A stretch of DNA of 25,881 bases from a virus: IMG/VR virus record IMGVR_UViG_3300032307_000340, positions 1-25,881 of that record. One strand, written 5' to 3'. The position numbers and the translations under genes were made by a program. Positions 9,785 to 13,493 of the stretch are shown piece by piece. Numbering within the stretch: the stretch's first letter is position 1; every line of letters starts with the position of its first letter. The notes beneath the pieces are model-generated. The model saw only the letters and a list, made by a program, of their open reading frames with translations. It made no database searches and was not told the origin of the DNA.

Positions 9785-9812
9785 TTGACAAAGTTCTAAA
9801 AGGTAGTATAAT
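9785..9812 (+). promoter_or_regulatory. Sigma70-type promoter placed exactly before a tRNA-like RNA
   Basis: TTGACA (9785-9790) and TATAAT (9807-9812) are both perfect, with a 16-base spacer. The expected start is about 9819-9820, the first base of the closing stem of the RNA at 9820-9926. Confidence 0.8.
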
Positions 9813-9819
9813 TATATAT

Positions 9820-9926
9820 GTGGCCGTGAGCAAATAGGAAAAGCTCCAAGCTCGCTGGGAAGCGATGCTATGGGTCGGGCAACGTCTTAGACAACGCCCT
9901 TGGAGGTTCAAACCCTCCCGGCCACA
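9820..9926 (+). ncRNA. tRNA-like RNA with a GNRA hairpin in place of an anticodon arm
   Basis: GTGGCCG (9820-9826) pairs perfectly with CGGCCAC (9919-9925). A D-like stem GAGC/GCTC follows, and a perfect T arm GGAGG-TTCAAAC-CCTCC precedes the 3' strand. In the anticodon position TCGCT-GGGA-AGCGA forms a 5-bp stem with a GNRA tetraloop, extended by AGC/GCT. A fourth arm GGGC...GCCC carries an AAC/AAC internal loop and GTC-TTA-GAC at its tip. No 7-base anticodon loop was found. CCA is not encoded; ATATTTTT follows. It has its own promoter. It may be a tRNA mimic, with a bacterial Y-RNA-like or T4-type stable RNA as possible parallels. Confidence 0.65.
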
Positions 9927-9953
9927 TATTTTTAACACACACAGGTATTTAAA

Positions 9954-10292
9954 ATGAAAATTTTAGCAATTTTGACCACCATGGTTTTTGCAACAAATGC
10001 TCTAGCCTATGAAGAATCCAATATCCCGTCAGATCAACTGTTTGACTTTACCAAACGCATCACTAGTAGCACACAAGTTAGTATCGAAACTGCCAGTAAT
10101 GTCAAAGAAGCATGTGACAAAAAGGCAATGTCTTACCAAATTAAGCCAAATTATGTTAACCCTATGGCATGTAGCTTTTGGACTAAGAATTATTGCGTGA
10201 TTATTGTTGGAGAGAAGACAAGCCTAGACACTTTAGGGCACGAAATTAGGCATTGTTTTCAAGGGCATTGGCACAAATGGGTATCAAAATAA
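9954..10292 (+). CDS. Secreted HExxH metallopeptidase-like protein
   Basis: The 112-residue protein begins with a clear signal peptide, MKILAILTTMVFATNALA, with cleavage likely after Ala18. Near the C-terminus LGHEIRHCF contains a zincin-type HExxH (His96, Glu97, His100), followed by His105 and His107 that could supply a third ligand. Four cysteines in the mature part could form disulfides. It would act in the periplasm, for example on cell-wall peptides at lysis or on a host envelope protein, but that is inference. It is short for a peptidase and could be a minimal or inactive form. Confidence 0.65.
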   Translation: MKILAILTTMVFATNALAYEESNIPSDQLFDFTKRITSSTQVSIETASNVKEACDKKAMSYQIKPNYVNPMACSFWTKNYCVIIVGEKTSLDTLGHEIRHCFQGHWHKWVSK

Positions 10293-12865: not shown

Positions 12866-13069
12866 ATGGTAACAGGAAAAGTAAAATGGTTTAACGATGC
12901 CAAAGGTTTTGGATTCATTACACCGGACAATGGCGGAGCAGACCTTTTTGCTCATTTCTCTCAGATCAATTCAAGTGGTTTCAAAACACTGCAAGAAGGT
13001 CAGAGTGTAAGATTTGAAATCACGATGGGTATGAAAGGTGAGCAGGCTAGTAACATTCAGCCAGCTTAA
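12866..13069 (+). CDS. Cold-shock-domain protein (CspA-like)
   Basis: A 67-residue protein that is one cold-shock domain. [11 protein letters not shown] opens it, KGFGFI is RNP1, and DLFAHFSQI contains RNP2. The order and length match bacterial CspA proteins, which bind single-stranded RNA and DNA and melt RNA structure. It lies directly before the acceptor piece of the tmRNA, with only a few bases between its stop and that RNA, so the two may share a transcript. Confidence 0.93.
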
Positions 13070-13072
13070 AGA

Positions 13073-13137
13073 ATAGTTGTAATCCCTTCAAAGCGAAGGA
13101 CTCTTGGACGCGGGTTCGACTCCCGCCTGGTCCACCA
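13073..13137 (+). ncRNA. ssrA: tmRNA acceptor piece (permuted ssrA, 3' tRNA-like half)
   Basis: CCTTC/GAAGG forms a hairpin at 13085-13099. It is followed by GGACGCGGGTTCGACTCCCG, the conserved tmRNA T-arm region, then CTGGTCC-A-CCA. The 3' strand CTGGTCC (13127-13133) pairs perfectly with GGGCCAG at 13227-13233, which lies downstream instead of upstream. The gene is therefore circularly permuted. The 3:70 pair is G-U, the alanine identity element. The exact 5' end is not certain. Confidence 0.9.
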
Positions 13138-13226
13138 TAAGGAGATTAGTATGAACGACGATTTGACCCACCTAGCAATAGGAGTAGTGGTTGTCTTAGT
13201 AGTTTTTGCGCTAGTACTCTTATGAT
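13138..13226 (+). other. Intervening segment of the permuted tmRNA
   Basis: These 89 bases lie between the CCA end of the acceptor piece and the 5' end of the coding piece. They should be cut out when the precursor matures, probably by RNase P at 13226/13227 and a 3' nuclease at 13137. They are almost wholly filled by a ribosome site and a small reading frame. Confidence 0.8.
13151..13225 (+). CDS. Single-pass membrane peptide inside the tmRNA intervening segment
   Basis: A 24-residue frame starting MNDDLTHLAIG and continuing as one unbroken run of Val, Leu, Ala and Phe to the stop. The charged N-terminus and about 15 hydrophobic residues fit a single membrane helix. AAGGAG at 13139-13144 lies 6 bases before the ATG, and the TGA ends one base before the mature 5' end of the tmRNA coding piece. 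It is too short for ordinary gene finders. The frame, the strong ribosome site and the tight fit make chance unlikely, but translation is unproven. Confidence 0.65.
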   Translation: MNDDLTHLAIGVVVVLVVFALVLL

Positions 13227-13443
13227 GGGCCAGCCATGGTTTCGACAGGGGTAGATAGTAGAGACGGCAACTGAGTAGGCGATGACTCTAAATCAAGCAA
13301 AACTAGTAAATGCAAACGCAAATACAACCGAAGAAGAAGTAATGACTTTCGTCTGGGATCTTCCAGCTAACGAAAGCCGTTACGCTTTAGCAGCCTAAGA
13401 AACTGCACTTCCGGGGCAACTATGCCTTGTCAAATAAAATAGT
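13227..13443 (+). ncRNA. ssrA: tmRNA coding piece (permuted ssrA)
   Basis: GGGCCAG (13227-13233) is the acceptor 5' strand. The D-like segment CATGGTTTCGACAGGGG is typical of tmRNA. A tag frame starts at the resume codon GCA (13312) and ends in TAA at 13396. After the tag, CTGCACTTCCGGGGCA can form the short pseudoknot stem expected in two-piece tmRNAs. A terminator begins at 13444. Together with the acceptor piece it would rescue stalled ribosomes. The mature 3' end of this piece cannot be fixed by eye. Confidence 0.9.
13312..13398 (+). other. tmRNA tag reading frame, 28 residues
   Basis: From the presumed resume codon GCA the frame reads ANANTTEEEV, then MTFVWDLPANESR, then YALAA and TAA. 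The last five residues equal the end of the E. coli tag, which is read by ClpXP and ClpAP with the adaptor SspB helping. The tag is far longer than the usual 8-15 residues. TAGTAAAT directly before GCA resembles the conserved sequence upstream of the resume codon. A later resume codon would shorten the tag. Confidence 0.7.
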
Positions 13444-13470
13444 GAAGGAGCCTTCGGGCTCTTTCTTTTT
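13444..13470 (+). terminator. Intrinsic terminator after tmRNA
   Basis: A 9-bp stem, GAAGGAGCC with GGCTCTTTC, closes on a UUCG tetraloop and is followed by TTTTT at 13466-13470. It ends the CspA-tmRNA region. Confidence 0.9.
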
Positions 13471-13493
13471 GGGTAAATTACCAAATAAAGCTC

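Follow-up and report, generated by a model that had tools for sequence, protein, structure and literature searches.

A tRNA-Leu-like RNA family without an anticodon loop in large freshwater phages, predicted to accept leucine

The stretch of DNA analysed here (the window) is an IMG/VR virus fragment of 25,881 bases that carries seven tRNA genes and a permuted tmRNA. It also harbors an element of 107 nt (Table 1) that is best explained, with a probability of roughly 0.55, as a non-decoding RNA descended from tRNA-Leu and predicted to be charged with leucine. Comparison with 127 distinct relatives found in virus contigs confirms that the element is a member of a conserved RNA family and not a chance fold.

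A first-pass annotation had proposed a tRNA mimic with perfect acceptor and T stems, a D-like stem, a GGGA-closed hairpin in the anticodon-arm position and a further arm. All of these are present at 9820-9926, and the arms, their covariation and the promoter support its reading as a tRNA mimic with no anticodon and a promoter of its own; the further arm is, more precisely, the long variable arm of a type II tRNA. What that annotation missed is the likeness to tRNA-Leu everywhere outside the anticodon arm, and neither a specific role for the GNRA loop nor its suggestion of a Y RNA was borne out, as described below; the decoy that it proposed is kept as a candidate role.

Table 1. Coordinates of the tRNA-Leu-like element, its parts and its immediate surroundings in the window.
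Feature	Position	Strand	Basis or remark
sigma-70 promoter TTGACA-16 nt-TATAAT	9785..9812	+	12/12 match
tRNA-Leu-like RNA without anticodon (acceptor base 1 to A73)	9820..9926	+	covariance model R1 match, MFE z -2.9
Acceptor stem 5' strand, pairs with 9919-9925	9820..9826	+	7/7 pairs; both-side covariation in 5/7
D arm	9829..9845	+	stem 9829-9831/9843-9845, 11-nt loop; from sequence, invariance in relatives
D-loop bases	A14 9833; A15 9834; G18G19 9837-9838; A20a 9840	+	
Anticodon-arm replacement	9846..9873	+	predicted fold; different capped hairpins here in relatives
Long variable arm GGGC-AAC-GUC-UUA-GAC-AAC-GCCC	9877..9899	+	predicted fold; base stem covaries strongly
U48, partner of A15 (trans-Levitt pair)	9901	+	T in 127/127 elements
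T arm GGAGG-TTCAAAC-CCTCC	9902..9918	+	5/5 pairs; 4/5 covary
Discriminator A73	9926	+	A73 in 127/127; here followed by TAT, not CCA
Small secreted protein, GHEIRHC (HExxH) motif	9954..10292	+	homologue 3' of 45/127 elements

In the window copy the acceptor stem (GTGGCCG/CGGCCAC) pairs at all seven positions and the D stem is the 3-bp AGC/GCT. The arm that stands in for the anticodon arm is built of CCA/TGG, AGC/GCT (with A9870 bulged) and TCGCT/AGCGA, so that a UCGCU-GGGA-AGCGA hairpin, its tetraloop at 9857-9860, sits on a short stem. The predicted minimum free energy is -44.7 kcal/mol vs -33.6 +/- 3.8 for shuffled sequences (z -2.9; 2 out of 200 shuffles fold as well), and covariance model R1 matches positions 9820-9929 at 79.7 bits. 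Measured against a decoding tRNA, the element has the acceptor, D and T stems and the TTCRA T-loop but not the 5-bp anticodon stem with a 7-nt loop and U33, where it carries the GGGA tetraloop instead. Neither ARAGORN nor Rfam RF00005 returned anything at the element, even at E<=10, so the covariance-model check proposed in the first-pass annotation, in which a normal tRNA would have spoken against a mimic, found no such tRNA. Elsewhere in the family, one relative is a borderline RF00005 match (29.7 bits).

Divergent copies were first found by nhmmer on loci fetched via neighbouring proteins, and two pattern scans of virus contigs then raised the family to its 127 distinct sequences. In a covariation alignment of 88 representatives, standard pairs fill 98.7% of pair cells vs 30-49% for slid controls; 14 of the 21 pairs show changes on both sides, with 245 double-change cells vs 67 in shuffles. 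Covarying pairs are found in the acceptor, T, variable-arm and outer anticodon-arm stems, in agreement with RNAalifold, and alignment pair 77-98 at the base of the variable arm appears as GC, AU, CG and UA. Arm architecture is thus kept among relatives, as a conserved mimic would require, whereas the AAC/AAC internal loop and the GGGA loop, which the earlier annotation had singled out, are not. Covariance model R1, which was built from these representatives, gives 74-105 bits for family members and about 46 bits at most for ordinary tRNAs.

Exactly one strong match was found in 31 out of 37 large records, including 13/13 of those of at least 128 kb, a sample that was in part fetched via the RNA itself and contains some near-duplicates of one phage. 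Among records fetched by protein, 15 of 21 carry the RNA, including all five of at least 128 kb. Judged by these sequence records, the RNA has the character of a single-copy core gene in these large freshwater phages and apparently belongs to the regular gene set of an abundant lake-phage group. A blastn search of cultured phages with three queries gave no whole-element match, its weak matches being confined to the T/acceptor end; a pattern scan of a bacterial genome collection gave 8 chance matches, all without a T arm; and a search, run without a positive control, of 150 genomes from the order of a Massilia genome gave no model match at E<=1e-10. No published description of such a family was found in open-licence full texts, a coverage outside which most subscription journals fall.

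The arm replacing the anticodon arm is the variable part of the molecule. Its length ranges from about 11 to 38 nt and its sequence varies as well, the caps including UUCG, UUUG, CUUG, GNRA (GGGA, GUGA, GAGA, GCGA, GUAA, GCAA and GAAA), a CYCAUAG loop, GACCCCCA and GUAACAAAC. By a simple rule, UNCG/UUUG, CUUG or GNRA tetraloops cap about 59 of the 127 arms. Only about 21/127 relatives have a GNRA loop, the rest having UUCG, UUUG, CUUG or larger loops, which argues against a special role for it. Constant stems exchange UUCG for GCAA and UUCG for UUUG, and GNRA loops differ only at N and R, a pattern typical of a structural cap. As far as the alignments tell, the conserved feature is the missing normal anticodon loop, not the GNRA loop itself. 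A canonical anticodon arm in register is possible in 12 of 127 elements vs 415 of 435 ordinary tRNAs, and for the ten of those 12 that were inspected a non-anticodon hairpin fits better. The gene is very probably without a decoding function.

Two variants of the arm were also observed. In L041, L167, L253, L270, L282 and L300 an invariant CYCAUAG end loop sits on covarying stems, and the conserved CAU loop of this subclass may bind something specific. The arms of L248, L250 and L317 carry an AGUA/GAA internal loop below a UUCG cap that resembles the sarcin-ricin (bulged-G) motif.

Outside that arm the resemblance to tRNA-Leu is pervasive. A73, U48, A15, A14, G18 and G19 are present in 127/127 elements and A20a in 126/127. 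The search patterns themselves fixed A14A15, U8 and G18G19 (type A also A20a), so the evidence free of pattern bias is U48, A73, the CCA end and the copies found via protein neighbours or by the model alone; model-only copies outside the search patterns keep the same identity bases, and protein-anchored copies agree. CCA is encoded in 119/127 relatives, the window copy being without it. Among ARAGORN calls at the same loci, the set A14, A15, U48, A20a and A73 is found in 38/39 tRNA-Leu genes vs 36/410 others, a few of the latter being the elements themselves, miscalled. In protein-fetched loci the best ordinary tRNAs reach 38 bits with R1 and are mostly tRNA-Leu; the top two R1 matches in a Massilia genome, at 45.7 and 37.3 bits, are likewise tRNA-Leu. 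We thereby show, by alignment and model scores, that the family is derived from tRNA-Leu and has no anticodon loop.

The determinants of leucine identity in E. coli are A73, A15-U48, G18G19, A20a and D/T-loop contacts; leucylation needs neither the anticodon nor the variable-arm sequence, and removal of the anticodon arm from tRNA-Leu leaves aminoacylation in place, while editing does require that arm (PMC9976931, review). All of these E. coli substrate features (A73, A15-U48, G18G19, A20a and the D/T contacts) are present in the phage RNA. With the determinants kept and the anticodon dropped, the RNA retains what LeuRS is known to read and loses what the ribosome reads. We consider it fairly probable that it is leucylated in the cell, although descent from tRNA-Leu alone could account for some of the identity bases that it has kept.

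Among known RNAs, bacterial tRNA-Leu (type II) is the closest: it shares the A14A15/G18G19/A20a D-loop, U48, the long variable arm, A73 and CCA, and supplies the highest-scoring ordinary RNAs with the family model. Unlike tRNA-Leu, the phage RNA has no anticodon loop, its variable arm is longer and in two parts, its D stem departs from the ordinary one (A10-U25, G11-C24), and a consensus promoter of its own starts at base 1. With tmRNA it shares the look of an aminoacylatable, tRNA-like RNA without an anticodon; it differs in having no tag reading frame and no pseudoknots, complete D and variable arms, and leucine rather than alanine determinants. Identity with tmRNA was rejected: at 107 nt the element has no Rfam tmRNA match, and a separate phage tmRNA is present. 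The latter is a permuted two-piece tmRNA at window positions 13045-13489 (Rfam RF04321, 130.6 bits; tag ANANTTEEEVMTFVWDLPANESRYALAA), seen also in close relatives (L018), while none was found at cut-off in 13 large relatives. B. cereus tRNA-Other is tRNA-shaped, stands outside decoding and is charged without decoding; together with mascRNA it resembles the phage RNA in this respect, but both have another identity and come from other organisms, and neither represents a tRNA-Leu family devoid of an anticodon. A partly tRNA-like module is also found in bacterial Y RNA (YrlA), yet where YrlA has a Ro-binding stem the phage RNA bears a genuine acceptor stem with A73/CCA. The Y-RNA-like factor of the first-pass annotation was dropped, since Rfam gave only chance-level matches at E<=10. 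Plant-virus tRNA-like structures such as TYMV TLS-Val are likewise viral RNAs that imitate tRNA for host synthetases. The phage RNA, unlike TLS-Val, is encoded by a DNA phage as a gene standing on its own, not as a genomic 3' end, and its acceptor arm is a normal one without a pseudoknot; TLS-Val depends on an anticodon mimic (PMC9976931).

Other structured RNAs were seen in related loci. Genes resembling tRNA-Ile(UAU), 90-99 nt in length and with an unusually long, type II-like variable arm, are located at L016 4459-4549, L021 185-276, L047 1616-1707 and L041 948-1046, the last being missed by ARAGORN. L024, a relative of the window, contains a GOLLD RNA with a tRNA-Arg inside (positions 1-449).

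The -10 box of the window promoter ends 7 nt ahead of base 9820 and transcription is thus expected to start at 9819/9820, in line with the earlier claim of a perfect promoter placing the start at the first base. Promoters matching at 10/12 positions or better precede 110/127 relatives vs 20/414 ordinary tRNA genes, nearly all with a spacer of 17 and a -10 box ending 6 nt before base 1. Our best reading of these motifs is that the RNA is strongly transcribed, without a leader, from its own near-consensus promoter. Host sigma-70 RNA polymerase would likely initiate at base 1, in which case RNase P trimming would be unneeded. Host LeuRS, whose recognition relies on A73, the A15-U48 core and the D/T contacts and not on the anticodon, would likely charge the RNA with leucine. 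As it reads no codon, the RNA would stay outside elongation and might occupy or redirect the handling of host leucine tRNA, steps that we infer with less assurance. In the likeliest form of this, the RNA would act as a decoy or competitor towards host proteins with affinity for tRNA-Leu bodies or ends, candidate targets being LeuRS itself or tRNA-attacking defence factors; we adopt this role only tentatively, as a first choice of function.

No neighbour is universal: a radical-SAM island and the HExxH protein each adjoin part of the family. No Leu/Phe-transferase was found in 20 phage records, no FemX-like protein in 13, and no phage LeuRS or peptidyl-tRNA hydrolase in the records searched. 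With neither a universal neighbour nor a phage partner enzyme, the RNA most likely acts through host factors.

A related possibility, which we regard as unlikely, is that the RNA works uncharged, its tRNA-Leu body and 3' end soaking up tRNA-attacking nucleases or 3'-end modifying toxins and so sparing the phage tRNAs. The strong promoter, the single copy, the lack of an anticodon loop to cut and the many tRNAs carried by these phages would fit, as would the findings that defence systems aimed at tRNAs are countered by tRNAs of phages (PMC10264068, PMC11555353) and that antiphage immunity includes toxSAS effectors directed against the 3' CCA ends of tRNAs (PMC11559606). However, a pure decoy does not obviously require that CCA be encoded and the leucine identity set be complete, and this analysis identified no defence factor specific for the tRNA-Leu body.

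It is improbable that the charged RNA serves as a leucine donor, feeding a non-ribosomal transfer (N-terminal tagging by a host Leu/Phe-transferase, or a peptide or aminoacyl ligase) without being spent by translation. An acceptor that is identity-complete yet non-decoding suits such a role, and a pathway to a modified peptide would be consistent with the radical-SAM gene that lies back-to-back with many copies of type B and some of type A. That gene is missing around the window copy, as it is in many relatives, and may belong to a mere variable island, and the searches for Leu/Phe-transferase and FemX-like proteins above count against a donor. The island itself, observed in L194, L206, L242, L283, L349 and others, lies upstream in divergent orientation and contains several radical-SAM, SGNH-like and methyltransferase-like genes.

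Distinctly improbable is a leader acting in cis, in which the element forms the 5' UTR of the gene that follows and its tRNA shape serves mRNA maturation, as a stabiliser or as a processing signal freed by RNase Z/E. A promoter starting at base 1 agrees with it, and in 45/127 copies, that of the window among them, an HExxH homologue starts 22-31 nt beyond the element; in the window its gene probably shares a transcript with the element. Few copies have a terminator-like T-run behind them: five-T runs lie 3' of 21/126 copies vs 19/431 tRNAs, and most copies lack any terminator-like T-run. With the other 82 copies, however, no HExxH homologue was found: a tRNA-Arg(CCU) follows 15 of them and an SNTVEQ gene another 15, and behind the rest lie different ORFs or, within 170 nt, nothing; and neither LeuRS determinants nor capped arms are needed for a mere processing signal. 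The HExxH proteins (window, L047, L073, L264 and others) share a conserved GHExxHC and have no Pfam match over cut-off.

That the element is a decaying or mis-called tRNA-Leu, either a pseudogene or a tRNA with an anticodon-loop insert, is scarcely credible: its descent and the tRNA-Arg(ucg) or undetermined labels that ARAGORN gives to a few relatives would suit this, but it is already contradicted by covariation. Against it stand the compensatory changes, the conserved promoter, the occurrence of one copy in each phage although the lineages have diverged, the genuine tRNA-Leu genes that many of these loci also contain, and the capped arms, which vary widely in length and share no insert boundaries.

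The preferred reading thus remains a non-decoding, leucine-accepting descendant of tRNA-Leu. Phage tRNAs are explained mainly by codon supply or by the replacement of cleaved host tRNAs, and a strongly promoted, non-decoding tRNA-Leu-like gene fits neither. The family points instead to a non-translational use of the aminoacyl-tRNA body by DNA phages, in RNAs that current tRNA finders overlook or mislabel. We speculate, with the odds somewhat against it, that it represents a widespread class of phage RNAs charged by LeuRS but not decoding, through which the phage commandeers the leucine pool or LeuRS outside translation; if so, such an RNA would be a regulator or counter-defence of a sort not described before, and, should it act as a decoy, it would reveal which host tRNA-targeting defence it answers.
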